64,000 bases of DNA from positions 79,486,001 to 79,550,000 of the forward strand of contig CM077597.1 of NCBI GenBank assembly GCA_039654915.1, given 5' to 3'. The notes below the pieces were generated by a model. That model saw only the letters and a list, made by a program, of their open reading frames with translations, did no database searches and was not told the DNA's origin. This DNA comes from Aquilaria yunnanensis. Its lineage: Eukaryota > Streptophyta > Magnoliopsida > Malvales > Thymelaeaceae. Shown here piece by piece: positions 1-45,500 of the stretch (the first letter of the stretch is position 1; each line of letters starts with the position of its first letter). The position numbers and the translations under genes were made by a program.

Positions 1-936
1 GAACGATTAACTTTACTTTATTTGGTGACGACGCTCATTTCACTTCCATATTTTATTCTTATTTTATTATTTCTATTACAACAAAAGCCAACACCCTTTA
101 TCATTATTTGGAATATATATTATTATTTCTTTAAATAACAAAATAATTAAACTTATCTTTTTAATTCATTTAAATAACAAAAATTTAATTTTTGTTTCTT
201 TTAAATAAAAATAAATAAAAAAAAAAATCAATCATAACCAAATGGTTTCACAAAAAAAAAATTATTTTTTCTAAAGTATTTGATTTAAATTTATAGATTT
301 AGATTATTCAATAAAATTTTTCAGAAAAAAGAATGAAAAAAAAAAATAAAATTTTAAAAACAAAACAAAATACAAAACAATAAAAAATAATAAAATTTCC
401 AAATTTCACAAAATTTATGACAAATCATGAATTAGGTTTTAGATTAAAATCCATGTCCGGGTGATCCAATAGGATTCATGGCTTGGAAAAATATACAAAC
501 TTTTAATTGAATAAAAATAAATACAAAGATAAAAATCCATATTTACAATATGGATTAAATTATTTAAAAGTTCACCAAATTCCGTGTCCAAATGACTCGG
601 CAGAGTCCATGGTTCGGAATCAAAATCTTCCGTGTCCAAATGACTCGGTAGAGTCCATGGTTCGGAAGTATAAAATTATATACAAATTAATTACCAAAAA
701 TCCACATCCGATTAATTCAGTTAAAAATTCTAGATTGAAAATTAACTGAAATTTTTCTAAAAGCAAAGCAAAACAAAATTAAAATCAACTAAGGTGCCAA
801 TTTTGGGCGCTATAACAAAATTGTTTTAGCGTAACCGTACTCCCGATCCCCTAACTCTCGCAGACCAATTTTAAGGTGACCAATCGACCTAGGTAAACGG
901 ATTGGTGGCGACTCCAGAAAACCCGACGTTGCCACA
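1..936 (+). repeat. 5' LTR (3' part only) of the Ogre-type element
   Basis: Matches the last 935 bases of the 3' LTR (14,153-15,087) with a few substitutions and small A-run length changes, and ends in CA at 936. It includes three copies of a dyad motif (CCATGTCC or CCGTGTCC, then about 15 bases, then CATGG) at about 452, 584 and 631. The upstream 2.85 kb of this LTR lie outside the window. Short open frames here are repeated in the other LTR and have no coding character. Confidence 0.9.
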
Positions 937-939
937 GCT

Positions 940-957
940 TGGCGACTCCGCTGGGGA
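940..957 (+). other. Primer-binding site (PBS)
   Basis: TGGCGACTCCGCTGGGGA starts three bases after the LTR end. It has the TGG start expected of a complement to a tRNA CCA tail. Ogre-type elements are known to use tRNA-Arg; the match to a specific tRNA is inferred, not checked. Confidence 0.75.
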
Positions 958-5342: not shown

Positions 5343-5891
5343 ATGGATCCTACTTTTTCCGCCTTGCGAAAGTATTTCCCTTCTCTCCCAATGAACATTC
5401 TCAAAAAGATCTACCAAGTTCGCTGTGAACGATTAAGAGTTCTGATGCACAAAGGAATCCCTGAAGATGTGCGGTGGTTAATCGAAGCCACGGTTCGTCT
5501 GGCAGGTGAAATCCCAGAGGCATTTGTGTCTCACATGCCTGGTATAGGCAAAAGCTCTTATGCCAAAAAGCGAAGAGCGAAAAGGTTACAAGTCTGCCAT
5601 AAATGTGGACGGTGGACTTGTAATACTAAATGTCGTTCTTTAGGGATGATCTCTGATAATCGAGAAGATAAAATACGATTCATTAAGAATGGCCTGAGTA
5701 AGGACTCATTGGATGATATCCAATTGACTCTTGAGACGCATTCTTGTGGATCTGTGCAACGTGAAATTCTTGATTTATGGAGTATTTTTCATGAAGAACG
5801 AGACCGTTACAGTCCCGGGAATCTGACTTTAAACGACCCTGTTTGCCGGCTTGTAAGAAAGCTGGATGGGAAGAAGATCCTCGACTCATAG
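5343..5891 (+). CDS. Cys-rich protein 1, carlavirus-type nucleic-acid-binding protein-like
   Basis: An intact single-exon frame of 182 residues. In order: an N-terminal helical region (1-60), a GxGKS-like turn, a strongly basic stretch (SSYAKKRRAKR, about 71-81), a zinc-finger-like cluster CHKCGRWTCNTKC (Cys 85, 88, 93, 97), a segment with RFIKNGL (112-118), and a C-terminal 50-residue tail. The order G-K/R-S-x-Y-A, basic run, C-x2-C, then FIxNG resembles the cysteine-rich nucleic-acid-binding proteins of carlaviruses and relatives (Betaflexiviridae), which bind nucleic acid and act in silencing suppression or host gene activation. The cluster here is C-x2-C-x4-C-x3-C, shorter than I expect for carlaviruses, and the tail is extra. 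First of three tandem copies inside the LTR element. Assignment is by motif only; a plant family of unknown function is the alternative. Confidence 0.7.
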   Translation: MDPTFSALRKYFPSLPMNILKKIYQVRCERLRVLMHKGIPEDVRWLIEATVRLAGEIPEAFVSHMPGIGKSSYAKKRRAKRLQVCHKCGRWTCNTKCRSLGMISDNREDKIRFIKNGLSKDSLDDIQLTLETHSCGSVQREILDLWSIFHEERDRYSPGNLTLNDPVCRLVRKLDGKKILDS

Positions 5892-6034
5892 AAGCCGTTA
5901 ATGCCGTTACTGGACGTAAAACCAGTGGAAGATGTGAGCCACAGTCACAATTACTGTACATACAGTTTGTTATATTTGGAAAAATTTACATTTTCTTTTG
6001 ACAGATGTACATGCTCCCCTAAGTGTAATCGACA

Positions 6035-6060
6035 CGTTATCCCTTTTCATCACTATAAAT
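6035..6060 (+). promoter_or_regulatory. Shared TATA module of Cys-rich gene 2
   Basis: CATCACTATAAAT preceded by a TTATCCCTTTT block, with the TATA at 6,054. The same module recurs before gene 3 (6,863-6,888) and, slightly altered, before the LOG-like gene, which suggests one promoter type duplicated with the genes. Confidence 0.6.
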
Positions 6061-6180
6061 GCGTGTTCTTCCTTCTGATTAAGCAGCGGATAAGATACCC
6101 CGTGACTTCTAAATTCGGTTATTCCAGTCTCCTACAATAACTGATTCATTTCCCTCTTCTCTCAAATTCTTCTCTCATCA

Positions 6181-6729
6181 ATGGATTATACTCTTTCTGC
6201 ACTGCGAAAATACTTTCCTTCCATTCCAATAAAAGTCCTTAAAAAGATCTACCTTGCTAGATGTGAAAGAATCAGAGTTTTTACACGCAAAGGCATTCCC
6301 GATAATGTGCAGTGGATAATTGAAGCTAAGGTCCGTTTGGCGGGTGAAGTTCCAGATGCATTTATGCCTCGCATGCCCGGTTTAGGTAAAAGCCGTTATG
6401 CCAAAAGGCGAAGAGCAAAGAGATTAGGCGTGTGTTATAAATGTGGGCGATGGAATTGTAATACTAAATGTCGCTCTTTAGGATACATCTCCACAAATCG
6501 TGAAGATAAAAGAAAATTCATTAAGAATGGCCTGCGTAAGGAATCTCTGGAAGATATCCGAGAGACTCTTGAAACGCATTCTTGTGGAAAAGTGCAAGGT
6601 CAAATTGTCAAATTGTGGAGGACTTACCATAAAGAATGAGACCGTTACAGTCTTGGGAATGTGACTGTAAACGACCCTGTCTGCCAGCTTGTAAGAAAAC
6701 TGGATGGGAAGCAAGTCCTCGACTCATAG
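6181..6729 (+). pseudogene. Cys-rich protein 2, interrupted by one nonsense codon
   Basis: The second tandem copy, colinear with copies 1 and 3 over the same 549 bases without any indel. One TGA at 6,637-6,639 stands where copy 1 has CGA (Arg) and copy 3 has CAG, so a single C-to-T change cuts the product at 152 residues. The shortened product would still keep the basic run, the four-cysteine cluster (CYKCGRWNCNTKC) and the FIKNGL segment, losing only the 30-residue tail. It might therefore still work, or be a recent pseudogene. Downstream of the stop the frame stays open to the conserved TAG at 6,727. Its own TATA module lies 127 bases upstream of the ATG. Confidence 0.7.
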
Positions 6730-6862
6730 AATGCATTGAAGCCATTACTAGATATAAATCAGTGGAAGATGAGAGCCACAGTCATGATTGCTGTACATAT
6801 AAGCTGTCATTTGTCTTTTCTTTTGACAATAATGTACTTGCTTCTGTAAGTGTAAATTAACG

Positions 6863-6888
6863 CATTATCCCTTTCATCACTATAAATA
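6863..6888 (+). promoter_or_regulatory. Shared TATA module of Cys-rich gene 3
   Basis: CATCACTATAAATATG preceded by attatccctt. The TATA at 6,881 is 63 bases upstream of the ATG. Nearly the same sequence as the module at 6,035-6,060. Confidence 0.6.
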
Positions 6889-6943
6889 TGTGTTAGTTAT
6901 TTTCATTTCCTACAATCACTAATTTCTTTCTTTGCCTCCTTCA

Positions 6944-7492
6944 ATGGAGTATTCTCTTTCCGCCCTACGAAAGTATTTTCCTTCCTTCCCAATAAATGTT
7001 CTTAAAAAGATTTATCAAGCTAGATGTGAACGATTCAGAGTATTTATGCACAAAGGCATTCCTGATAATGTGCGGTGGCTAATTGAAGCTAAGGTTCGTT
7101 CAGCTGGTGAAGTTCCCGAAGCGTTCTTGCCCCGTATGCCCGGCTTTGGTAAAAGCGCTTATGCCAAAAAAAGAAGAGCAAAGAGGCTAGGCGTTTGTCA
7201 TAATTGTGGATGGTGGATTTGTGGCAATAAATGTCGTTCTCCAGGAGTGATTACCAGAAATCGTAATGATAGAATAAGATTCATCAAGAATGGCCTGCGT
7301 AAGGAATCTTTGGATGATATCCTATTAACTTTTGAAACACATTCTTGTGAAATAGTGCAATGGGAAATTATGGATTTATGGTGGACTTTCCGTAAAGAAC
7401 AGGATCGTTACAGTCTTGGAAATCTGACTTTTAATGACCCAGTTTGCCAGTTTGTGAGAAAACTGGATGGGATGCAAATCGCCAATTCATAG
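6944..7492 (+). CDS. Cys-rich protein 3, carlavirus-type nucleic-acid-binding protein-like
   Basis: An intact third copy of 182 residues. I take the ATG at 6,944 because it aligns with the starts of copies 1 and 2; an in-frame TTG lies 12 bases upstream. The basic run (AYAKKRRAKR) and all four cysteines (CHNCGWWICGNKC, positions 85, 88, 93, 97) are kept, as is RFIKNGL. By hand count it differs from copy 1 at about 50 residues, with no insertion or deletion. That pattern suggests long coexistence under constraint on the reading frame. Whether the copies have diverged in target cannot be told from the sequence. Confidence 0.7.
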   Translation: MEYSLSALRKYFPSFPINVLKKIYQARCERFRVFMHKGIPDNVRWLIEAKVRSAGEVPEAFLPRMPGFGKSAYAKKRRAKRLGVCHNCGWWICGNKCRSPGVITRNRNDRIRFIKNGLRKESLDDILLTFETHSCEIVQWEIMDLWWTFRKEQDRYSLGNLTFNDPVCQFVRKLDGMQIANS

Positions 7493-7589
7493 AAGGCATT
7501 GAAGCCGTTACTGGATGCAAAATCAGTGGAAGACATGAACCAAAGTCACGATTACTGTACATGCTAGCTGTCGCTTTTGAAATTATCCT

Positions 7590-7800
7590 CCCAATAATGT
7601 ACCCACTCCTGACATGAGATACAGTTATGACTACTATATATAGCAGCTACTTTTGAAATTTTCCTTCTCTTTCAACAATCACGTACCTACTCCTGACGTA
7701 AGCTACAGTAGTGACTACTGTGTATGCTAGTTGCTTTTGAAATTTTCCTCCTCTTTTAACGATAGTGTACCCATACCTGACCAGAGTCATACTTGTGACT
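7590..7800 (+). promoter_or_regulatory. Triplicated 85-95-bp upstream repeat with an as-1-like site
   Basis: Three imperfect units, each containing a ctga-c-a-ga/aag-tacag phrase and gtgactactgtg or a close variant, then a gcttttgaaattttcctc block. They lie between Cys-rich gene 3 and the LOG-like gene. The middle unit contains TGACGTAAG (7,694-7,702), the form of half-site bound by TGA-type bZIP factors in the 35S-type viral promoters. The arrangement looks like a multimerised upstream promoter element; function is inferred. Confidence 0.5.
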
Positions 7801-7849
7801 ACTGTGAATAGCTGGCAATAATATATCCATTCTTGAAAATAAAATTATT

Positions 7850-7875
7850 ACTTTATCTTTTCATCTCTATAAATA
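7850..7875 (+). promoter_or_regulatory. TATA module of the LOG-like gene
   Basis: ctttatcttttcatctctataaata, with the TATA at 7,868, 48 bases before the main ATG. It is a variant of the module in front of Cys-rich genes 2 and 3, linking the LOG-like gene to the same transcription design. Confidence 0.55.
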
Positions 7876-7899
7876 TATCCTCTTTTCTTCTTTTCTCAC

Positions 7900-7938
7900 A
7901 TGGGTAAGGATAGGAATGGAGAAAACCTCCACTCGTAA
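7900..7938 (+). CDS. Short upstream ORF overlapping the LOG-like start
   Basis: An ATG at 7,900 in another frame opens a 12-codon frame that reads across the LOG-like start codon and ends at TAA 7,936-7,938. If the transcript starts near the TATA at 7,868 this would be the first AUG, so main-frame translation would depend on leaky scanning or reinitiation. Seen in sequence; the effect is inferred. Confidence 0.4.
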   Translation: MGKDRNGENLHS

Positions 7939-8545
7939 ATCCCGAAGTATTTGTGTATTTTCTGGAGCTTTTCCTGGAGAAGATGAAGAGTACTTAAAGG
8001 CAGCCAACCATTTGGGTAGTGTATTAGCTGAGCAAAAAATACACTTAGTTTATGGAGGAGGTAATGTCGGATTAATGGGAGCTGTAGCATCAGCAGCATC
8101 TTTAGGAGGAAGCCAGGTTCTGGGTATTATCCCTGCATCTCTGAAATCGGTTTCTGGGGGCACAATTGGAGAAGAGCTAGTGGTTAAAAATCTGCAAGAG
8201 CGTTTGTTACAAATGCTTTTTAATGCTGATGCTTTTATCGCACTACCAGGTGGCTTTGGCACATTAGGAGAAGTCTTCCAAATCGCTTCCATGGCCCAAC
8301 TTAATTTGCATCAAAAACCCATTGGGCTGTTAAATGTTAACTATTTCTTCGCAGGTCTATTATCTTTTATGAATCGTGCTGTGAAGCAGAAGTTTATCCC
8401 TGAGGTGGCACGACGAATCATAATATCCGCAACAACTGCTGAAGAATTGCTAGATAAAATGGAAGCTTTTGTTCCTGAACCAGATCCAGCAATGATCCAA
8501 ATAGACTGGACACGACAGTCTTTCCCGACCAGTTCACTCCCATAA
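7916..8545 (+). CDS. LOG-like / lysine-decarboxylase-like protein (cytokinin-activating family)
   Basis: An intact intronless frame of 209 residues. It has the Rossmann-like fold signatures of the LOG family (PF03641): ICVFSGAFPG (12-21), VYGGGNVGLMG (45-55), ADAFIALPGGFGTLGEVFQ (104-122) and KPIGLLNVN. The PGGxGTxxE motif is complete, with Glu 119 and the upstream Arg 96 at the positions used by LOG enzymes to cleave cytokinin riboside 5'-monophosphate into free cytokinin. Departures from classical plant LOGs are FSG for FCG and RL for RK; together with AQLNxHQKPIGLLNVN and the DPAM ending these suggest a less-studied lysine-decarboxylase-like plant subgroup, so the activity is not certain. 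Host genes of this family usually have several introns; an uninterrupted copy inside an LTR element points to capture through RNA. It is the fourth cargo gene, in the same direction as the Cys-rich trio. Confidence 0.85.
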   Translation: MEKTSTRKSRSICVFSGAFPGEDEEYLKAANHLGSVLAEQKIHLVYGGGNVGLMGAVASAASLGGSQVLGIIPASLKSVSGGTIGEELVVKNLQERLLQMLFNADAFIALPGGFGTLGEVFQIASMAQLNLHQKPIGLLNVNYFFAGLLSFMNRAVKQKFIPEVARRIIISATTAEELLDKMEAFVPEPDPAMIQIDWTRQSFPTSSLP

Positions 8546-9057: not shown

Positions 9058-10620
9058 CGCTCGAGGTCCTAAGGAAAGCTCCCTAGCCTCAAAATCAATT
9101 TTCATCATCGGGGTTTTAAGGATGGAACCTTTGCCTCGAAAATAATCAATTTTCATCAATCCGAGGTTTTAAGGATGGAACCTTTGCCTCGAAAACAATC
9201 AATTTTCATCAATCCGAGGTTTTAAGGATGAAACCTTTGCCTCGAAAACAATCAATTTTCATCATCGGGGTTTTAAGGATGGAACCTTTGCCTCGAAAAT
9301 AATCAATTTTCATCATCGGGGTTTTAAGGATGGAACCTTTGCCTCGAAAACAATCAATTTTCATCATCGGGGTTTTAAGGATGGAACCTTTGCCTCGAAA
9401 ATAATCAATTTTCATTATCGGGGTTTTAAGGATGGAACCTTTGCCTCGAAAATAATCAATTTTCATCATCGGGGTTTTAAGGATGGAACCTTTGCCTCGA
9501 AAACAATCAATTTTCATCATCGGAGTTTTAAGGATGGAACCTTTGCCTCGAAAATAATCAATTTTCATCGTCGGAATTTTAAGGATGAAACCTTTTCCTC
9601 GAAATCAATCAATCAATCCGAGGTTTTAAGGATGGAACCTTTGCCTCGAGATCAATCAATCAATTCGAGGTTTTAAGGATGGAACCTTTACCTCGACATC
9701 AATCAATCAATCCGAGGTTTTAAGGATAGAACCTTTGCCTCGAAATCAATCAATCAATCTGAGGTTTTAAGGATGAAACCTTTGCCTTGAAATCAATTAA
9801 TCAATTTGAAGTTTTAAGGATGGAACCTTTGCCTCGAAATCAATCAATCAATTCGAGGTTTTAAGGATGGAACCTTTGCCTCGAAAACAATCAATTTTCA
9901 TCAATTCGGGGTTTTAAGGATGGAACCTTTGCCTCGAAAACAATCAATTTTCATCATCGGGGTTTTAAGGATGGAACCTTTGCCTCGAAAACAATCAATT
10001 TTCATAATCGGGGTTTTAAGGATGGAACCTTTGCCTCGAAAAGAATCAATTTTCATCATCGGGGTTTTAAGGATGGAACCTTTGCCTCGAAAACAATCAA
10101 TTTTCATCATCGGGGTTTTAAGGATGGAACCTTTGCCTCGAAAACAATCAATTTTCATCATCGGGGTTTTAAGGACCTCGAGATCAAACAATCAATTCGA
10201 GGTTATAAAGGATGGAACCTTTACCTCGACATCAATCAATCAATCCGAGGTTGTAAAGGATGGAACCTTTACCTCGAGATCAATCAATCAATCCGAGGTT
10301 TTAAGGATGGAACCTTTGCCTCGAGATCAATCAATCAATCCGAGGTTTTAAGGATGGAACCTTTACCTCGAGATCAATCAATCAATCCGAGGTTGTAAAG
10401 GATGGAACCTTTGCCTCGAGATCAAACAATCAATCCGAGGTTGTAAAGGATGGAACCTTTGCCTCGAGATCAATCAATCAATTCGAGGTTTTAAGGATGG
10501 AACCTTTGCCTCGAGATCAATCAATCAATCCGAGGTTTTAAGGATGGAACCTTTGCCTCGAGATCAATCAATCAATCCGAGGTTTTAAGGATGGAACCTT
10601 TGCCTCGAAATCAATTTTCA
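9058..10620 (+). repeat. Tandem array A: about 46-48-bp hairpin repeats, roughly 30 copies
   Basis: Units read gaggttttaaggatggaa, then cctttgcctcga, then a spacer of caatcaat repeats or aatcaattttcatcatc. Within each unit GAGG pairs with CCTC and AAGG with CCTT, so every copy can fold as a short hairpin. Two spacer types alternate in blocks. This is the 3' UTR position (between the last gene and the PPT), where Ogre/Tat elements are known to carry variable tandem repeats. The short open frames across it are repeat artefacts. Confidence 0.9.
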
Positions 10621-10624
10621 ATTA

Positions 10625-11190
10625 ACGATAGGACTGCTCTTATCGTCGAGGTTCAAGGAAAGTTCCTTAACCTCATTCAATCAATTCCAATTTCAACGAT
10701 AGGAAAGTTCCTATCGTCGAGGTTCAAGGAAAGTTCCTTAACCTCATTCAATTAATTTCAATTTCAACGATAGGAAAGTTCCTATCGTCAAGGTTCAAGG
10801 AAAGTTCCTTAACCTCATTCAATCAATTTTAATTTCAACGATAGGAAAGTTCCTATCATCGAGGTTTAAGGAGAGTTCCTTAACCTCATTCAATCAAATT
10901 TTCAACGATAGGAAAGTTCCTATCGTCGAGGTTCAAGGAGAGTTCCTTAACCTCAATCAATCAGTCCATCTTACAACGATAGAAGTTTTCCTATCGTTAG
11001 AAGTTCTAAGGACCTTTCCTTAAACCTCAAACAAACAATCAATCAATCAACTTTTCTTCAACGATAAGAGAGTTCTTATCGCAGAGGTTCTAAGGTAGGG
11101 CCCTTAGTCTCAATTTCAATCCATCAATTTTCCTTCAACGATAGGAGAGTTCCTATCGTCAAGATTCTAAAGAGAATTCTTTAAACCTTA
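10625..11190 (+). repeat. Tandem array B: about 75-bp double-hairpin repeats, roughly 7 copies
   Basis: Each unit contains two inverted repeats: ACGATAGGAA with TTCCTATCGT, and GAGGTTCAAGGAA with TTCCTTAACCTC, joined by a caatttcaatt-type spacer. A related array occurs in opposite orientation at 38,880-39,365 in a second Ogre-type copy, so the hairpin pair is a family trait. Confidence 0.9.
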
Positions 11191-11280: not shown

Positions 11281-11293
11281 GCAAAGGGGGGCA
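11281..11293 (+). other. Polypurine tract of the Ogre-type element
   Basis: gcaaaggggggca immediately upstream of the 3' LTR start at 11,296. This is the expected position for plus-strand priming. The same tract appears inverted at 38,770-38,784 in the second copy. Confidence 0.8.
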
Positions 11294-11992
11294 GCTGTTG
11301 ACACCCAATTTCGTCCGACCTTCATAAAAAAAAATTAATTAATTAAAAAATATTAATTAAATTAAAAATAATATTTTATATTTATTGATAACAATTAGTT
11401 TAGGATGGGGGCATTTTTATTTTATAAGTTTAAAAAAAAAAAAAATAAAATATAATAATATATCTGTTTGTGTGTGTTAAATTAAAAATTAAAAATTTAT
11501 TATTAGTTAAAATAATAATAAAAATAAAAAAATCTCATCTCCAGAGACTTCGAGGCCCTCTGGAGCCTTCTCCTTTCTTCTTCTCGTTTCTATTTAGCAG
11601 GGGGCCTTCTTAGCTCTCTCACTCAGGAAGCTCCCTAGCTGGAGCGGATCTCTCACCTGCTCCCTAAGCTCTCTCTCTCCCGAAGGCTCTCCCTCTCTCT
11701 CTCTCACAACAGCTTTTCACTCTCAATTTTCCTTCCTCCCTCGCAAACAACCATCTTCTCTGGCCACACAGAACTAATTTCCTTCTCTCGACTCTCTTCT
11801 CTCTCTCTCTCTCTCTCTCCAGGATGATCTCTCTCTCACCTTCTCCTACTTCAATTGTTTCCTCCTCCTCTCCCTCAGAAGTTCGCCGCGTACTCTTCCA
11901 AGCTCAAGGCCCACGCCCACGATTCATCTCTTTCGCTCGAAAGAACAAAATATTTCCTGCTGGGTGGTATATGATTGGCGACTGTGGCTGGG

Positions 11993-12000
11993 CTATAAAT
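11993..12000 (+). promoter_or_regulatory. Candidate LTR TATA box
   Basis: CTATAAAT inside the GC-rich block of the LTR. A comparable CTATAAATAG lies at 39,407 in the related LTR segment within the METTL25-like gene intron. Confidence 0.4.
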
Positions 12001-13084
12001 CCATCTCAGTTGCTGCTGCTGCTGCCTCCCTCGGCAGTTGGCAGACGCGGTGACGCTGACCGTAGCTCGCTCTCGCAATCCCTCATCTGCTCGCCGCCTC
12101 GCTCGCTCCGTCTTCATCGACCTCGTGAAGCCTGAAGGTAGCTACTCAGTGCGCCATCGTCCATCAGCCACAGCCACCGGCGGCGTCGAGATTCCCTGTC
12201 TGTCCTCGGTTCCGGAGATGGAACCGCCACTGAAGCTATTCCCTTGCTCCACCACGCCGCGCCCGTGCTTCATGCCGCGCTTAGACTTCCCCCTCGGTCG
12301 CCCTGCCGTCCCCTTTTGCTGCAGCGCCACCATCGTCCCGACGCCGGAAGAACAAAAGAAGAAGACGAAGACGCCAGACGCATCTTTTATTTTGACCAAG
12401 TCAAAGTTTTTTTTTTTTGGGTAAAACCCTTATTCAATCCTCCATCTTCTAATTTTATTTCATATGAGTCACTAACTTCATTTTATCTCGCAGATCAGTC
12501 ACTAACAGCAGGATTTTTATTGATTTCTCTTTTCTTTTGTTTTATTTATTTTGTCTGTTTGAGCTTTGCATTAATTTTAATTATTAAGTTTATACAAAAT
12601 ATGACTTATGTGTTTTACTTCATGTTGTCTCTTTTGTTTTGTTTTTTTTTTTTGTTTGTTTTCTTTTTATTTGTTCTCTTTATTTACTCATCGGTTGATT
12701 TATTTACTTACTTACTTGACTATCTATTTTTTTTTACTTATTTATTTATTTACTTACTTCTTTATTTATTTTACTTTCTTTGATTTCTCTCTTTGTTCTG
12801 TTTAATTTGTCATCTATCAAATTAAGTCATTAAATCTATATAGGCATATCATTTGGAATGTTTAATTCATTTTTATATTTTCTGGTTCTTATAATTGTAA
12901 TTTAGATCTCATAATGCATCTTGAAAATAAAAAATATTAATAGGATATAAGAATAATTAGTAAATTAATTGCTCATGTATGCTTACTTTTCTCATCATCT
13001 AGAAATTAGGAAGAGATTTAATAAGAGATCAATTTTATAACACATGGCAAATTTCAGAGATCCACCCGTAGTAATTAATAAAAT

Positions 13085-13490
13085 CCGAAATCAATCCTTC
13101 ATCCATGTCCAGATGATTCGGTTAGAATCCATGGCTTGGATATTAACTAAGATTATTAAAAATAAAATAAAATTAAATAACGAAATTTTAAGGACGTCTA
13201 TATCCATGTCCAAATGATTCGGTTAGAATCCATGGCTTGGATATTAGCTAAGATTATTAAAAATAAAATAAAATTAAATAACAAAATCCTAAGACGGATC
13301 ATATCCATGTCCAAATGATTCGGTTAGAATCCATGGCTTGGATATTAGCTAAAAATATTAATTATTAAAAATAAAATTAAATAACGAGATCCTAAAACGG
13401 ATCATATCCATGTCTAAATGATTCGGTTAGAATCCATGGCTTGGATATTAAATTCCATATCCGAATGATCCGGCAAGATCCACGGTTTGG
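13085..13490 (+). repeat. LTR dyad-motif repeat, about 100-115-bp period
   Basis: Four copies of CCATGTCC...aatgattcggtta...CCATGG at about 13,105, 13,203, 13,305 and 13,408, and a divergent fifth at 13,458, separated by AT-rich linkers. Related motifs recur near 14,602, 14,733 and 14,782 and in the 5' LTR. Each has inverted ends (CCATG/CATGG). Confidence 0.8.
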
Positions 13491-13921
13491 AAGAACAAAT
13501 TATATCCTAAACTTCTAATAAAAAATAATAATCGCCGCGACATTCAACAAAACCACCACCAGTCGTAAATAAATCGTTCGCCATCATTCGACATCAAATC
13601 AGGGGCAAAAATCCGTTCGCAAATCCTCAGCTCGATTAAGAGTCGATTCAAAATTCACGGTATAATTTCTCTTTAATCCTCCAGTTTTTTTTTATACAAG
13701 TCGTTAACCTTTTTATTATTTCTGAAGAACTAACAATAATCTTTATATGTTTATTATTATTATTATTGTTATCATTGTTATTATTATTCCATTCAAATCA
13801 TTAACCATTTAATTTTTGTTATATTAACAACTAACTTTACTAACTGCTAACTTTTATTATTATCGTTATCACTAACCATTTAATTTTTGTTATACTAACA
13901 ACTAATTTTACAAACAACTAA

Positions 13922-13927
13922 CTTTTA

Positions 13928-13972
<45 letters not shown>
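13922..13972 (+). repeat. (TTA)n microsatellite
   Basis: A run of TTA/TAT triplets inside the 3' LTR. Confidence 0.9.
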
Positions 13973-13976
<4 letters not shown>

Positions 13977-15087
13977 TGGAAGGTTATACCTCTTTTTATT
14001 TTTAAGTAGACGGCAAAAAGCCCCATTTTTCTTTTATTTATCTAATCTCCCGCAATTATTTACTTTATTGCACGTTTTATTTTCATGTCAATGGTTAAAT
14101 GCCCCCACTTTATTTATTTATTTATTTTCATGCAACTTTATTTTTCTTTATGTGAACGATTAACTTTACTTTATTTGGTGACGACGCTCATTTCACTTCC
14201 ATGTTTTATTCTTATTTTATTATTTCTATTACAACAAAAGCCAACACCCTTTATCATTATTTGGAATATATATTATTATTTCTTTAAATAACAAAATAAT
14301 TAAACTTATCTTTTTAATTCATTTAAATAACAAAAATTTAATTTTTGTTTCTTTTAAATAAAAATAAATAAAAAAAAAATCAATCATAACCAAATGGTTT
14401 CACAAAAAAAAAATTATTTTTTCTAAAGTATTTGATTTAAATTTATAGATTTAGATTATTCAATAAAATTTTTCAAAAAAAAGAATGAAAAATAAAATAA
14501 AATTTTAAAAACAAAACAAAATACAAAACAATAAAAAATAATAAAATTTCCAAATTTCACAAAATTTATGACAAATCATGAATTAGGTTTTAGATTAAAA
14601 TCCATGTCCGGGTGATCCAATAGGATTCATGGCTTGGAAAAATATACAAACTTTTAATTGAATAAAAATAAATACAAAGATAAAAATCCATATTTACAAT
14701 ATGGATTAAATTATTTAAAAGTTCACCAAATTCCGTGTCCAAATGACTCGGCAGAGTCCATGGTTCGGAATCAAAATCTTCCGTGTCCAAATGACTCGGT
14801 AGAGTCCATGGTTCGGAAGTATAAAATTATATACAAATTAATTACCAAAAATCCACATCCGATTAATTCAGTTAAAAATTCTAGATTGAAAATTAACTGA
14901 AATTTTTCTAAAAGCAAAGCAAAACAAAATTAAAATCAACTAAGGTGCCAATTTTGGGCGCTATAACAAAATTGTTTTAGCGTAACCGTACTCCCGATCC
15001 CCGAACTCTCGCAGACCAATTTTAAGGTGACCAATCGACCTAGGTAAACGGATTGGTGGCGACTCCAGAAAACCCGACGTTGCCACA

Positions 15088-15092
15088 CGGGG
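15088..15092 (+). other. Presumed target-site duplication of the Ogre-type element in the Copia LTR
   Basis: CGGGG directly after the LTR end aligns with CAGGG at 21,996-22,000 in the other Copia LTR. The rest of the Copia LTR follows without a gap, as expected if the Ogre-type element inserted here. The partner copy lies upstream of the window. Confidence 0.6.
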
Positions 15093-16437: not shown

Positions 16438-19400
16438 ATCTCCCACTTGCACTAAAAGCCAATCATCCATGTATCTAATACCGATGGACCTAGAATGGCT
16501 ATCATGCTTCTGCTGCGTAAGGGGCTTTGTCAGTGGATCAGCAATGTTGCTGTCTGTCGAAGTCCTGCATATCCTTACATCACCCCTCTCAATGATCTCC
16601 CTGATGAGATGATAGCGTCGAAGTATGTGTTTAGATCGTTGGTGAGATCAAGGTTCCTTAGCCTGTGCGATTGCTCCATTGTTGTCACAATAGAGCTCTA
16701 TCGGGTCAACAATGCTTGGAACCACTCCAAGTTCAGTGATGAACTTCTTGATCCAAACTGCCTCCTTCGCAACATCAGAGGCGGCAATGTATTCAGATTC
16801 TGTTGTAGAGTCAGCTACTGTCTCTTGCTTTGAACTCTTCCAGCTCACAGCACCACCACCAATACAAAACACATAACCAGATTGCGATCTAAAATCATCC
16901 TTATTGGATTAGAAGCTTGCATCGGTGTAACCCCTTACAACGAGCTCATCTTTACCTCCAAAGACCAAGAATGCATCCTTAGTCCTTCGTAAGTACTTAA
17001 GGATGTTCTTAACAGCTGTCCAGTGACTTTCACCGGGGTTCGATTGGTACCTACTCGTCATGCTCAAAGCATATGAGACATCGGGACGAGTACATATCAT
17101 GGCATACATGATAGATCCAATTGCTGAGGCATATGGAATCTTACTCATGCGCTCTCTCTCCTCGGTTGTACTCGGACACTGAGATCTAGAAAGAGTGATA
17201 CCATGTGACATGGGCAAGAATCCTTTCTTGGAATCTTGCATGCTAAACCTCTTTAGCACCTTGTCAATATATGTACTTTGACTTAGGCCAAGAAGCTTTC
17301 TAGATCTATCTCTATAGATCCTGATGCCTAACACATAGGCTGCTTCACCCAAGTCCTTCATAGAGAAACATTTCCTTAGCCAAGTCTTCATAGACTGTAG
17401 CTCAGGAATGTCATTCTCGATGAGTAGTATGTCATCTACATACAACACCAAGAAGACAATAGCGCTCCCACTAACCTTCTTGTAGACACAAGGTTCATCT
17501 TCATTTTTGATAAAACCAAACTCTTTGATTGCATCATCAAAACGAAGATTCCAACTTCGAGAAGCTTGCTTCAGTCCATAAATGGACCTTTGCAATTTGC
17601 ACACTTTATTGGCATTCCCAGGAGTGACAAAACCCTCAGGCTGTGTCATGTACACATCCTCAAGTAGCTTTCCATTTAGGAATGCAGTTTTGACATCCAT
17701 TTGCCATATCTCATAATCATAGTGTGCAGCAATAGCAAACAAAATTCGGATGGATTTAAGCATAGCAACTGGTGAAAAAGTTTCATCATAGTCAATACCA
17801 TGAATTTGCTTGAAACCTTTTGCAACCAATCTTCCCTTAAAGGTAATCACATTACCATCCATGTCAGTTTTCTTCTTGAAAACCCATTTGCACCCTATAG
17901 GTTTTACCCCTTCAGGTGGGTCAACCAAAGTCCATACTTGGTTTTCATACATGGATTCCATCTCGGATTTCATGGCCATTAGCCACTTCTCAGAGTCAGG
18001 CCCCGACATAGCTTGTTGGTAGGTTGTGGGCTCATCTTGATCCATGAGCATCACATCACCGATGTGAGTCACGAGAAATCCATATCTCTCGGGCTCACGC
18101 CGAATCCTACCAGTCCTACGTGGGCTTTGTGCTACAGGAACAAACTCTTGAACCACAACATCTTGTGGTGTCTGTTCAGGTTCCATTTCAGGTTCAATGT
18201 CTCCTTGTTGTTCTTGAATTTCTTCAAGTTCTACTTTCCTCCCACTAGTTCCTTTAGAGATAAACTCTTTCTCCAAAAAGACACCAGTTCGAGCAACAAA
18301 CACTTTTTACTCAGAAGGATTTTAGAAATAGTAACCCTTTGTTTCTTTGGGATACCCAACAAAAAGACATTTTTTAGATTTGGGCCCTAGTTTGTTAGAG
18401 GATTGACGTTTTACATAAGCGTCACAGCCCCAAATCTTCATAAAAGACAAATTGGGACGCCTCCCACTCCATATCTCATATGGTGTCTTTTGAACCGATT
18501 TAGATGGAACTCGGTTTAGTGTAAAAGCGGTTGTCTCTAGAGCATGTCCCCAAAAGGAGTTTGGAAGGTCAGCTTGACTCATCATGGAGCGAACCATGTC
18601 TAACAGAGTTCGATTTCTCCTTTCAGAAACACCATTCCATTGAGGTGTACCTGGTGGAGTGAGTTGTGATATTATACCACACTCCTTCAGATAGTCAAGG
18701 AATTCTCGATCCAAGTACTCTCCACCTCGATCTGATCGAAGCACTTTGATACTCTTCCCGAGTTGATTCTCTACTTCATTCTTGAATTCTTTGAACTTTT
18801 CAAAGGATTCTGACTTGTGTCTCATAAGATACACATAGCCATATCTGCTGAAGTCATCAGTGAAAGTAATGAAGTATTGGAAACCTCCTCTAGCTTGTGT
18901 AGACATAGGGCCACATACATCACTATGTATGAGTCCTAGTAAGTCATTAGCCCTTTCACTTTGCCCTGTGAATGGGGCTTTGGTCATCTTGCCCAACAAA
19001 CATGACTCACATGTCTCATATGATTCAAAATCAAATGAGTCCAAGAGTCCATCCTTATGGAGCTTGGATATGCGGGTCTCATTTATATGGCCCAAGCGAC
19101 AGTGCCAGAGATAGGTCGAGTTTGAATCATTTAATCTGACCTTCTTGGTATTCACATTATAGATTGGATCTTCAAGGTCTAGAACATACAACCCATTGCT
19201 AAGTTGAGCACTACCATAAAAGATTTCATTCAAATAAATAGAACAACATTTGTCCTTTATTATAAATGAAAAACCTTTCTTGTCCAAACAAGAAACAGAA
19301 ATCAAATTTCTACTAATAGTAGGCACAAAGTAGCAGTTGTCTAATTCTAAAACTAATCCACTAGGTAAAGTGAGAACATAAGTCCCTACGGCTAAGGCAG

Positions 19401-20403
19401 CAACCCTTGCTCCATTTCCAACACGTAGGTCCACTTCACCTCGGGCCAATCTTCTACTTCTACTTAGATCCTGCACATTTGCACAAATGTGAGATCCACA
19501 TCCAGTATCCAATACCCAAGATGAGGAAGTAGAAAAGTTAGCCTTTATAACAAAAATACCTGAAGTGGAAGTCTTACTTCCCTTTTCCTTAGCAAGTTCT
19601 TCAAGATAGAGCTTACAGTTGCGCTTCCAGTGTCCAGGTTGCTTACAATGGAAGCACTCCCCTTTCTTTGCCACACCACCCTTTGGTTTCAGTGCAGCTG
19701 AAGAAGAACTAGCATTGGACTTTCCATTAGCTTTATCCTCCTTCTTGTTGGCTTTTCCTTGTCCCTTGCCCTTTTGAACCATCAAAATGGGCTTAGCCTT
19801 CTTAAGGTTTTGCTCAGCAGTTCTCAACATGTTGAGCAATTCAGGAAGGGACTTGTCTAGGTCGTTCATGTTATAGTTCATGACGAACTGACTGTAGCTT
19901 TCAGGCAACGATTGCAAGACTACATCGATAGCCAACTCTTTCTGAAGAGCAATTCCCAAATTCTCAAGATTCTCAATGTACCCAATCATCTTGAGCACAT
20001 GAGGACCCACGGGACTTCCCTCAGACATCTTGCACTGAAACAATGCCTTAGAGGTCTCAAACCTCTCATGCCTAGCTTGCTCTTGGAAAAGCATTTTGAG
20101 ATGTTCGATCATATCGAACGCCCCCATGTTCTCATGTTGCTTCTGAAGCTCAGATTCCATGGTAATAAGCATGAGGCATGCAACATCCAAAGCATCATCA
20201 GAATGCCTCTTGTGAGCATCCCTTTCAGCTCTTGGAGCAGTGGCAGCAGGCTCATTCGGAATGGGCTGCTCTAGGACATATGCCTTTCTCTCTTGTTTGA
20301 GGACTATCCTCAAGTTTCGGTACCATTTGAGAAAGTTGGTCCCATTCAGTTTTTCCTTCTCAAGGATCGATCGCAACGAAAGTGTCGATGTGTTTTGTGC
20401 CAT
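16432..20403 (-). pseudogene. Copia gag-pol polyprotein with four in-frame stops
   Basis: A frame of 1,323 codons from ATG 20,403 to a TAG just inside the 3' LTR, with no frameshift. In order: gag (MAQNTSTLSLRSILEKEKL), zinc knuckle CFHCKQPGHWKRNC, protease LDTGCGSH, integrase with a His-Cys motif (HCRLGHI...CESCLLGK) and the DDE residues in IHSDVCGPM, TDDFSRYGY and NGVSERRNRT, then RT with LYVDDILL, and RNase H. Stops are at 18,324-18,322 (in place of Tyr), 18,309-18,307 and 16,911-16,909 (CAA to TAA), and 16,650-16,648 (CGA to TGA). Three of the four are C-to-T changes on the coding strand, as expected from deamination of methylated DNA. The element cannot make a full polyprotein. Confidence 0.92.
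16438..16450 (-). other. Copia polypurine tract
   Basis: On the minus strand aagtgggagat lies directly before the LTR start TGTTAGTATTG, at the usual PPT position. Confidence 0.65.
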
Positions 20404-21928: not shown

Positions 21929-21929
21929 C

Positions 21930-23345
21930 TGTTGGGTTTCGGGAGCCAAACAGCGCAGCGGAATTTAACCGAAACCCTACAGGATCCAAGTGAAACAGGG
22001 TAAACCGGGTGTTCGAAAATTTCATACCTAATTTTCGGTTGAGATCTCTCACTCAACTGTAGAGTCGAATCACAAAACCTGAACAGTTGACGTGTTCAGG
22101 CTCTCTATGGTATCCACACGAGCCTCTCGGGATCACCACGCTTCCACCACGTCCCGGCAGATGCGTTTTTCTTGCGCTCGCAGTGCTAGCTTGCGTCCTC
22201 CAAGGAATTGCAAGAGAAGAGTGTGGCTGTCCTTTTGGGAGGCTAGGGCAAGGAGACCTGCGAATTTCTCACTTAAAAGTTGTATTTATAGTGTGACTCA
22301 ACTTCCAGGCCTAATGGGTTTCAAAGCCCTAATCCAATTAGGATTTAATTTCGGGCTTAATAATGGCTCAACTCCTTGGCCCATTATTAATACAAAATTA
22401 AAGTGAAACCATAACCCAAATAATTAGCCCATGCACTCTAATGATCCAAATAGCTCTATGTGTGCGACCCAATAGGCTCTTGCCATGTTGGCAATGATCA
22501 TAAATCACATTTATGATCATAAGCAATGAGCGGTGTCTAGCAACACATCATTGCTACCCAAGTGACAAGATTGTCGGTGAATCGACTAAACCTTTATGAT
22601 CATCACCGATATATGCCATTGTCCCTTTGTCCAAGATATCAAGACTAAGCACAAGACATGGAATGTGTCACTCTCGTATAGCCCAATCTTCGGTTTCTTG
22701 ATTACCGAGTAGACCAAATTAAACTGACGACATTGATATCATATATCAACTCATCGGAGCATGGCCATGCATTTTCTAAGTCTTACTCTATCAAGGGGCC
22801 CAAAGATATCACTCCCGTTACATAGGAGGGACAAATCCCATCTTGATCATACAAATCCCTCCGCATGATATGTGACATACCCAATGACCTCCTTCAAGTT
22901 CACTCAGTTACGAGCAACAAAGGAAAGTATCAAAGTATGTGACTCACATGTAGGGAACCTTGATGATCTTAGGTCGAAGGACTACATATACCATGATCAC
23001 TATGAGAATCACTTATGACACTCATATAACGATCCATGAAGTGTTCTCATGGTGGGTCGGTCCAGTACACAAGTTCTCCAACTTGTACCCATATGTAGAC
23101 TACATATCTCATATTAGTCTCCACATATGCTAGTCATTATGTATTATTGCAACCCGCTCCACAATAATACTAGACTAGGGACGTTTAAGAATATCATTAT
23201 TCTAGGGTTACAATTATGTTTATTATGTTACGCAGAAACAAAACAACAAACAAAATTGCTGGATTAATGCCTCAATAAAATATCATGACTCAATGTGCAA
23301 AAATACAATCATCTCATGATTGGCCTTTTGGGCACAATACTAACA
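21930..23345 (-). repeat. 5' LTR of the Copia element (1,416 bp, complete)
   Basis: On the plus strand it runs from TGTTGGGTTTC to CAATACTAACA, giving TG...CA ends in the element's own direction. ATGGT (23,346-23,350) is the presumed flank duplication; its partner would be upstream of the window. Confidence 0.92.
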
Positions 23346-42500: not shown

Positions 42501-45500
42501 TGTGTTCCATGGCTTTGTGGATTTATGGCTTGCTTTTAAGCATGTTTTTGTTGGTCTAACATTAGTGACCAAATTATGGACTTAGCTAAAATTTGGCCAA
42601 ACTTGGCTTTGGGCTTGTATTATGGACTTGGACATTTTTTGGTATTTTTATTGCTTGGTGGACTTACCAAGGCCCATGCATGAATTTATGGGTTATGTTT
42701 TCATGAAACTTGAAGCATGTTGAAATTGGGCTTAAATGTACATTTTGGGCTTAAATAAGAACTCGGAAAATTTTTATTTTATTCTTGGTTAATTTGGGCC
42801 ATATGCATGTTAAGTACTAAAAGGCCATAAGCCCATGTCTATGTTGAAAGCATGCAATGTTTGGCTATGTATGCTCACTTAGTAAAGAACATGCAAGTAA
42901 ACTTAGAAAAAGCATGAAATTGGATGCTTGTGTAAAGTTTGGCTAATAAGAAATTTAAGTGCACGTATGTGAATTAATACATGCCTAAGCATTAGTTGCA
43001 TCTAAAGGCATTAAGTGATTATGTGCACTACTGAACACCAAAACACATAAGCATGCAAAGCATATGCATGAAAATAAGTTTTTAAACTTAAGTTGGTGTT
43101 TTGGTTGCCATGCATATTCTTGGCTAAGCTTGGTAAAGACCATGAAGATGAACACATGAAATCCACATAGGTGCTAGCTTGTTTCTGAGAGCACTTCAAC
43201 TTAACCTTAATTAAAGAACTTAACGAGCTAGTACCTATAAGTATCCTGGGGTTCGTGCCCATAAGTCTTAGTGAGTTTTAAAAGCCCCTTCTGTGTAATG
43301 AAAACTTCCGCTGCATGTTTGAAAAAAAAAAAAAATCAGGCCCAAATGGGCCAGGGGCAGTTTAGGGCACGACAGCTTGGTATCAGAGCACAGTTGCTCT
43401 TAAGGACCAAAGTTTTGGTCTATGATTCTTAGTATGGACTTGTTCCCACATAGGTTAAGTCCACTAATGAATATTTATGAATATTGAGCAATTGTGTGCC
43501 TTGCTTGTTGTTAATTCCAGGATGAGAACCAGAAATACGAACCGAGGCCGAAATGAAAATGAAACTTCCCATCAGGGGAATGAAAATGCTGGCTTTGTGC
43601 CAGAGGCCCAAGTCAGGCCTTCTGAGCTCATAAGGGCTAATGTTACTGAGCCTAACATTGATGCCCAAGAAAGAAGAGAGGCAAGAATGGAAGCAATGAT
43701 GGAAGCTATGCAGGCCAATATGGCCCAATTAGCAGCTAGCATGCAAATTCTGGCAAGGGGTCAAGCCCAAGTCCCAGAGCCTACTGGGCAACAAAGAGAG
43801 CCACCAATAAGAAGGAGGCCAGGAAAAGAACCTATACTCGATGATCAAGCCAGTGAAAATGGTGATGATGAGGATGAGGAAAGGAGAAACCCAAGAGCTA
43901 GAAGGATAAGATCTGAGATTAGACAAGAACTGAGGGAAGAAGAAGAAGAAAGTCCAGATGCAGAAGAGCTGGACATAGAAGATATTGATGGGCTTGCCCA
44001 ACTCACTGTCACCACTGGAACAGTAAGGGCCCAAAGAGGGAGGCCCAATATGGATAATAGTGGAGGCTTAAGAGAAGGCCAACTAGAAGGGTTCCTTGCC
44101 CTAAGACCACCAACATTTAAAGGAAGCTGTAACCCAGATGAAGCAGAATTCTGGTTAAACCAAATTGAAAAGATCTTTGAGAGAATGGAGGTTTCCTCTT
44201 CTCAGAAGGTCTTACTGGCAACATTCAGGCTAGAAGGAAATGCTGAATTGTGGTGGAGAGCAGCCCACCGGACTTATGCTAGTAAAAATACTAGGCAGCC
44301 CGCTCAAAGCAGAAGAGCAATGAGATGGGCCAAATTCAAACAAGTGTTTCGTCAGCAATACTTCAGTGAAGCACTAAAAGACCAGAAACAGGTTGAGTTT
44401 GACCTGCTTGAGCAGAAAGAGCTCTCCGTACTGGAATACGAACAGAGATTCAGTAACCTCATACGGTACGCACCACAGTACGATGATCGAGAGGACCTTA
44501 AGGCCAAGAGGTTCCTTCGGGGACTTAGGCCAGAGTTGAGGCAAATACTCAGAGCAATAGGAGCCCATAAATACTACGACATTGTACAGAGGGCTATGGC
44601 CCTAGAGCAAGAATTCAGGGAGCAAGCCATGAATGGCCCTGGAAGTACTAGTGGGATGCAGAAATTCTCTAAGAAGAGAGGCAGAGAAAGCTTGGCATAT
44701 GAGCCAAGAAAGGGTAACAAGAGAGAGAAGACTGCATTCCCCTATGGACCACAATGTGAGACATGTGGAAAATTCCATGGCCAGAAGCCATGTTACAGGC
44801 TCACTTCCGGATGCCTTAAGTGTGGTGCCCAGGATCACTGGGTAAAAGACTGTCCTGTCAAAGGAGAAGATCAGAGGACCCTAGGAGGGTTTAATAACAG
44901 ATGGGCACAGAGGCAATTGCCCATAAGGAGGCGCAATATACCTTCACCCCCACAAAGAAGGGACCAAGATAAGGCCAGGAAGGGACAACCTCAGGCTACT
45001 GGAAGAATATTCCAGATTGAGACAACGACGAAAGCACGAGAGGACCTAGAGGTCAACAGAGCTGAGGAGGATGAGGAAGAAATAGACCAGGCTAAGCTGG
45101 TCAGAAAGACTCTGAAAGGTACCATTTTCATAAATGGTTATGAAGTATCAGTTTTGTTCGATACTGGAGCATCTTTATCTATAGTATCCTCTAAGCTAGT
45201 CAAAGATATAAACCTAGAAGTATGCAATACAGATAAAATGTACCTGGTTAAAACTGCCGGGAATGAGGTTATGATAACATACCATATGGTAAAAGATTGC
45301 ATGCTTAAGCTAGGTGAACTGGAGCTTAGAGCCGACCTGATGGTCTTGGATACTAATGGATATGATATCATTCTAGGAATGAACTGGCTTAGTGCCAATC
45401 GGGTGGTTATAGACTGCCATGCCAGGCAACTTTATCTGCCTGGGCACAAACCTCAATCTTTGGAAAAATCTCCTGGGTTAGTCCCAGATTTTCAATTAAA

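Follow-up and report, generated by a model that had tools for sequence, protein, structure and literature searches.

Here, we describe, in a 64,000-nucleotide stretch of the Aquilaria yunnanensis genome (contig CM077597.1, positions 79,486,001 to 79,550,000 of the forward strand; hereafter the window), a long terminal repeat (LTR) retrotransposon that carries three tandem genes for predicted cysteine-rich (Cys-rich) proteins of viral type, followed by a gene resembling LONELY GUY (LOG). This cassette is a family feature of a high-copy LTR retrotransposon and is not unique to the copy in the window. We speculate, and consider the chances evenly balanced, that the cassette works in favour of the element by dampening RNA silencing in the host and, likely, also by raising active cytokinin in the cells that express it.

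The gene cassette and its spread in the genome

A preliminary description of the window had placed three Cys-rich genes and a LOG-like gene, all in one direction, inside an LTR element. Indeed, four open reading frames lie on the + strand at 5343-8545, listed here together with the TATA boxes found between them:

5343..5891, + strand: Cys-rich gene, copy 1 (182 residues; PF05515 E-value 1.1e-7, PF01623 3.3e-6)
6053..6060, + strand: TATA box CTATAAAT, its TATAAA 127 bp before copy 2
6181..6639, + strand: Cys-rich gene, copy 2 (shortened to 152 residues in this element; PF05515 2.4e-8)
6880..6889, + strand: TATA box CTATAAATAT, its TATAAA 63 bp before copy 3
6944..7492, + strand: Cys-rich gene, copy 3 (182 residues from its ATG; PF05515 3.3e-6)
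7867..7877, + strand: TATA box CTATAAATATA, its TATAAA 48 bp before the LOG-like gene
7916..8545, + strand: LOG-like gene, intronless (209 residues; matches to PF03641, TIGR00730 and At2g37210)

All three Cys-rich proteins exceed the Pfam cut-offs, with 27.7-34.7 bits against 23 for PF05515 (Viral_NABP) and 21.5-27.4 bits against 20.9 for PF01623 (Carla_C4), the carlavirus family against which they had earlier been proposed to be checked. The LOG-like protein matches PF03641 (Lysine_decarbox) with 114.6 bits (cut-off 27; E-value 5e-33), TIGR00730 with 152 bits (cut-off 96.35) and Arabidopsis At2g37210 with 177 bits over 197 residues (3e-51). Because the Pfam E-values range from 2e-8 to 3e-6 for PF05515 and reach 5e-33 for PF03641, the Cys-rich and LOG matches are not due to chance. 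The cluster C-x2-C-x4-C-x3-C, already noticed in the preliminary description, is present in all three window copies and in 54 of the 56 Cys-rich copies from 20 elements (the window's included), and a basic stretch directly precedes it. The motif PGGxGTxxE occurs in the window LOG, in 19 of 20 copies of its own family and in 109 of 120 listed LOG relatives (P0121-P0240, out of 7,872).

Is the cassette a peculiarity of this one insertion? Copy 3 is found in at least 150 places of the 842-Mb genome at 88-100% identity, 17 of the 150 with a stop (150 were scored of 8,774 first-look candidates), and the LOG-like gene likewise in no fewer than 150 (96-100% identity), 15 of the 150 with a stop (150 scored of 3,663 candidates). 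All 19 further copies picked by copy 3 contain LOG behind two or three Cys-rich genes; LOG is partial in one copy, as are a few of the Cys-rich genes. These copies were drawn from both the best-scoring and the worst-scoring of the 150 matches, and their intact copy 3 is partly a matter of selection. A second sample, 10 of the 40 listed matches to a stretch comprising LTR and primer-binding site (PBS), was picked independently of the cassette genes: at least one Cys-rich gene was present in 10 out of 10 and LOG in 7 of the 10 slices of 3 kb. Both samples bear out the expectation that the same gene order would recur in other copies.

Intact frames had been described for copy 1, copy 3 and LOG, and they are confirmed at 182, 182 and 209 residues. 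The statement that all three Cys-rich proteins have 182 residues stands for copies 1 and 3 and fails in the window for copy 2, which reaches this length in other elements. Across the 20 elements, the whole 182-residue frame is kept in 15 of 20 copy-1, 13 of 16 copy-2 and 20 of 20 copy-3 genes, and the whole 209-residue LOG frame in 15 of 20, the other five being shortened. The TATA boxes are conserved as well: TATAAA lies 87-140 bp ahead of copy 2 in all 16 elements that have this copy, 63-127 bp ahead of copy 3 in 20 of 20 and 40-48 bp ahead of LOG in 20 of 20. This pattern would fit separate transcription units, which are likely for at least three of the genes. As for the LOG promoter, the idea that it is a duplicate of the promoter of the Cys-rich genes is not claimed here, since what similarity can be detected falls mostly within the 3' portion of the gene before it.

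We calculated pooled Nei-Gojobori ratios of nonsynonymous to synonymous substitution (dN/dS) and obtained 0.17 for copy 1 (169 of 171 pairs), 0.40 for copy 2 (115 of 120), 0.31 for copy 3 (145 of 190) and 0.27 for LOG (164 of 171). Pairs with dS = 0, with an identity below 75% or with a failed calculation were dropped, the partial copy-1 gene of locus L028 and the partial LOG gene of locus L023 were left out, and any stop codon was omitted individually. In the LTR-picked sample, copy 3 had a value of 0.31 (36 of 36 pairs, from 8 of the 10 loci and the window) and copy 1 one of 0.27 (10 of 10 pairs, from the window and those 4 of 10 loci whose slice contains the entire gene). The three Cys-rich copies within the element, compared with each other, gave 0.20-0.30. 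Such values would fit proteins of importance to the lineages that spread.

The LTR element and its insertion site

The element reaches from G000:C5:79483143, 2,858 bp upstream of the window start, to window position 15087, which corrects the earlier reading in that the start of the 5' LTR lies outside the window. Interior and one LTR together measure 14.15 kb. Outside the cassette, the element comprises:

1..936, + strand: 3' portion of the 5' LTR (complete LTR about 3,792 bp, starting 2,858 bp outside the window; 99.58% identical to the 3' LTR)
940..957, + strand: PBS-like sequence TGGCGACTCCGCTGGGGA, 3 nt past the end of the 5' LTR
9093..11029, + strand: tandem arrays, 31 copies of a 51-bp unit followed by 5-6 of a 71-bp unit, downstream of LOG and upstream of the 3' LTR
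11281..11295, + strand: purine-rich tract, abutting the start of the 3' LTR
11296..15087, + strand: 3' LTR (3,792 bp), followed by the target duplication CGGGG at 15088-15092

The two LTRs differ by 12 mismatches and 4 gap openings over 3,792 bp, and the 5-bp target-site duplication CGGGG is found at both outer LTR ends. Plant LTRs accumulate 0.7-1.3 x 10^-8 substitutions per site and year, and at these rates the LTR divergence corresponds to an insertion age of roughly 0.1-0.25 million years; the element in the window is a recent insertion. The last 72 bp of its upstream flank are 98.6% identical to window 21929-22000, which belongs to the undisturbed second LTR of another element. Because of this match, we regard 21929-22000 as the empty site and conclude that the insertion went into the first LTR of that target element. 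The target element runs on the - strand from window position 15088 to at least 22908, has gag-pol frames within 16909-20403 that look copia-like by eye, and its two LTRs share 99.2% identity across a compared stretch of 914 bp.

As the preliminary description had stated, there is no gag-pol between the PBS and the purine-rich tract: we found no such frame between the LTRs, and the longest open stretch on the + strand besides the four genes, 177 codons, lies within the tandem repeats. With its paired LTRs, its target duplication and no gag-pol frame, the element would be of the non-autonomous type. Its PBS-like sequence is putatively of the tRNA-Arg type known from Tat/Ogre elements, and a short frame at 1816-2052 looks like a Tat/Ogre gypsy protease, which would make it a possible remnant of a lost gag-pol.

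Elsewhere in the window, at 43477-48315, another element has a long gag-pol open reading frame of 1,612 residues, gypsy-type by eye; scanning the window for Rfam families and tRNAs yielded no matches. In the genome at large, some LTR/PBS matches come in pairs on one strand, 13.6-14.9 kb apart (G000:C6:46733761 and 46748697; C4:82400412 and 82415352; C3:76884430 and 76898013). This spacing is close to that of one LTR plus interior and possibly reflects tandem elements that share one LTR.

Relatives in viruses and other plants

The Cys-rich proteins resemble the nucleic-acid-binding Cys-rich proteins (CRPs) of flexiviruses (carla-, allexi- and mandariviruses), with a profile match above the cut-off that spans approximately 85-105 residues, and likewise in having a basic stretch immediately ahead of a Cys cluster. 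They differ from them in their length of 182 residues, in the C-terminal approximately 60 residues that extend beyond the profile match, and in their occurrence as several copies in a nuclear LTR element. By sequence, they are homologues of the viral family and, being encoded in a nuclear LTR element, not viral proteins. For the viral relatives, one paper (PMC12172455) describes accessory proteins: the CRP of CYVCV suppresses RNA silencing, those of SPCFV, PVM, CVB and CWMV are cited likewise, and p12 of CVB is cited as a transcription factor causing hyperplasia.

Relatives in other plants are numerous. All 120 listed copy-3 homologues (150 were found) have a precomputed PF01623 match, with the basic stretch in 113 and CX2CX4CX3C in 103 of the 120, and the named hosts include Populus, Xanthoceras, Acer, Citrus, Rhamnella and Orobanche, such that the Cys-rich relatives span rosids (Xanthoceras) and asterids (Orobanche). 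A second search, with a 67-residue profile aimed at the viral proteins of approximately 100 residues, adds Parasponia and Striga as hosts. Of its 559 matches, 120 were listed; the four of these that had an informative name or organism, namely Parasponia (two), Striga (one) and an automatic 'ribosomal protein L37E', are not viral. The PDB contains no relative of the Cys-rich family at E-values up to 1. The listed LOG relatives include many Reevesia entries and a Populus 'LOGL10'.

The two gene types also occur together outside Aquilaria. The Citrus gene model P0102 has a Cys-rich part, which shares 53% identity with copy 3 across 94% of the latter, and behind it a LOG part. In addition, two contigs of more than 4 kb have the same size and a common source in both homologue lists, as seen among the 22 and 20 longer contigs from the Cys-rich and LOG lists, respectively (shorter ones were not counted), which suggests more linked pairs. 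In the models P0104 (Orobanche minor) and P0077 (Rhamnella), a Cys-rich protein is joined to parts that we take to be a gypsy protease or an integrase C-terminus; a Pfam scan of both models found the Cys-rich part only and did not detect protease or integrase. The Cys-rich gene may, on this reading, also sit in elements with gag-pol.

The LOG-like protein shares with the plant LOG cytokinin riboside 5'-monophosphate phosphoribohydrolases the fold family, the PGGxGTxxE motif and the match to At2g37210. In contrast to plant LOGs, its gene has a single exon and resides in a mobile element, in at least 150 genomic places at 96-100% identity. The preliminary description knew of no plant LTR element with this cargo, which is too broad a statement: Ty3/gypsy elements with a LOG-type (YgdH) domain are on record for two Citrus species and, under less strict filtering, for Populus (PMC9289625, citing Steinbauerova 2011). 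Like the element in the window, these are plant gypsy elements with a LOG-type domain; unlike it, they are consensus elements built around reverse transcriptase, and section 12 of that paper has no mention of a viral-type gene in them. The same source describes Phalaenopsis (orchid) gypsy elements with an AlkB-type m6A demethylase that is active in vitro. These are likewise giant elements with a gene proposed to counter host surveillance; the gene is a different one, and AlkB domains occur in flexiviruses as well. Additional open reading frames of plant LTR elements are reviewed in PMC7264820, in which a search by terms showed no flexivirus-type Cys-rich gene, and the passages checked in PMC3136472 and PMC2714080 contain no report of a viral-type gene in a retrotransposon. 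More generally, our searches of one open-access library for a flexivirus-type Cys-rich gene in a retrotransposon or a plant genome brought up no such report among the entries listed. LOG-type cargo in plant Ty3/gypsy elements is therefore already known, and for the viral-type gene no earlier report was found among these entries.

What the cassette may do for the element

How could such a cassette serve an element of this type? We speculate that the TATA boxes drive separate messages, such that the LTR promoter would not be the sole source of expression. The Cys-rich proteins would enter the nucleus by means of the basic stretch beside the zinc-finger-like cluster and would bind RNA or DNA, as described for their viral relatives, leading to less silencing of element transcripts. 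LOG enzymes release active cytokinin (see also PMC9289625), and the LOG-like protein would turn cytokinin ribotides into active cytokinin and favour dividing cells, in which new insertions are heritable. The gag and pol proteins would be supplied in trans by a putative related Ty3/gypsy element. The counter-silencing half is better supported than the half that concerns cytokinin and cell division.

Several observations weigh against this proposal. Silencing suppression is described for the viral proteins and would extend to those of the element by analogy. The carlavirus cluster probably has the spacing C-x2-C-x12-C-x4-C, which differs from the C-x2-C-x4-C-x3-C found here. The AlphaFold model of copy 3 is poor (pLDDT 52, with 37 sequences in the alignment) and gives no structural support, and an IMG/VR scan returned 57 pattern matches, none of which was confirmed as a relative. 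On the LOG side, the NCBI cytokinin-LOG equivalog model gave 102.7 of the 300 bits required, below its cut-off, the model being a bacterial and archaeal one without a plant LOG score as yardstick. Both halves of the Citrus model P0102 stay under the Pfam cut-offs in our own scan. The dN/dS ratios were set beside 1 by their value alone, with no formal test. Copy 1 is preceded by TATAAA in only 6 of 20 elements. Finally, no gag-pol partner turned up, the 10 LTR-picked slices of 3 kb having no open frame longer than 241 residues, as judged by frames only and without a pol profile scan.

The strongest alternative, which we nevertheless regard as rather unlikely, is that the Cys-rich proteins act in replication of the element as nucleocapsid-like RNA chaperones or packaging factors that replace or assist gag, and not as suppressors, with an unrelated metabolic role for LOG. 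Basic, zinc-finger-like proteins with dN/dS well below 1, present in several copies per element in an element without gag, speak for it, and the models P0104 and P0077 agree with it in that the gene may also travel with gag-pol, if the parts we take for protease and integrase, undetected by Pfam, are such. However, elements with pol presumably have gag too, the TATA boxes of the genes themselves suggest accessory expression, and the viral relatives are accessory proteins (PMC12172455).

A further alternative, which we consider quite improbable, shifts the emphasis to growth: the Cys-rich protein would be a transcription factor comparable to p12 of CVB, with its hyperplasia (cited in PMC12172455), LOG would raise cytokinin, and the cassette would mainly drive cell proliferation. 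The LOG relatives lend this idea some substance: an EAR-like LxLxL tail (KLDLTLRL, KLNLTLSL and similar) ends 96 of the 108 relatives of 205-222 residues among the 120 listed, compared with 0.7% in shuffles. Such tails mark nuclear repressors, and we know of no such tail in ordinary plant LOGs. However, the LOG of the family in the window ends in SFPTSSLP and has no LxLxL tail, neither in the window nor in 14 of 14 sampled copies with the intact 209-residue frame. A quick tree, with two Arabidopsis LOGs serving as outgroup, places the window LOG on a long branch among the other plant relatives; it nests there with tail-bearing sequences (support 84), which points to a probable loss of the tail in the window family. 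Moreover, this many copies of a growth-promoting gene would be expected to damage the host if they were not silenced.

That the genes are a useless passenger, captured and amplified with the element, is very improbable and disfavoured: host-gene capture by plant LTR elements is known, and stops occur in 17 of 150 copy-3 and 15 of 150 LOG matches with 5 of 20 LOG frames shortened, but all four genes have a dN/dS clearly under 1, as do copies 1 and 3 in the LTR-picked sample, Cys-rich genes are kept in 10 of 10 LTR-picked copies where random loss would be predicted, and relatives are present in many plants.

Beyond the counter-silencing role that we prefer for the cassette, we suggest tentatively, and with somewhat less than even confidence, that plant LTR retrotransposons and flexiviruses share one pool of Cys-rich anti-silencing genes. 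A retroelement lineage of rosids and asterids would then carry the viral-type gene and LOG in tandem, under their own promoters and in a virus-like accessory use, and the viral genes may descend from those of the element.

To our knowledge, whether plant retrotransposons actively fight RNA silencing by means of accessory proteins is largely an open question. Here, a high-copy family, in which two of the cassette genes each have at least 150 genomic matches of 88-100% identity, contains conserved accessory genes homologous to a viral family that includes silencing suppressors. The finding bears on the origin of the flexivirus Cys-rich proteins and carries a warning for annotation, in that plant gene models labelled 'viral nucleic acid binding' or 'LOG' could belong to transposons.

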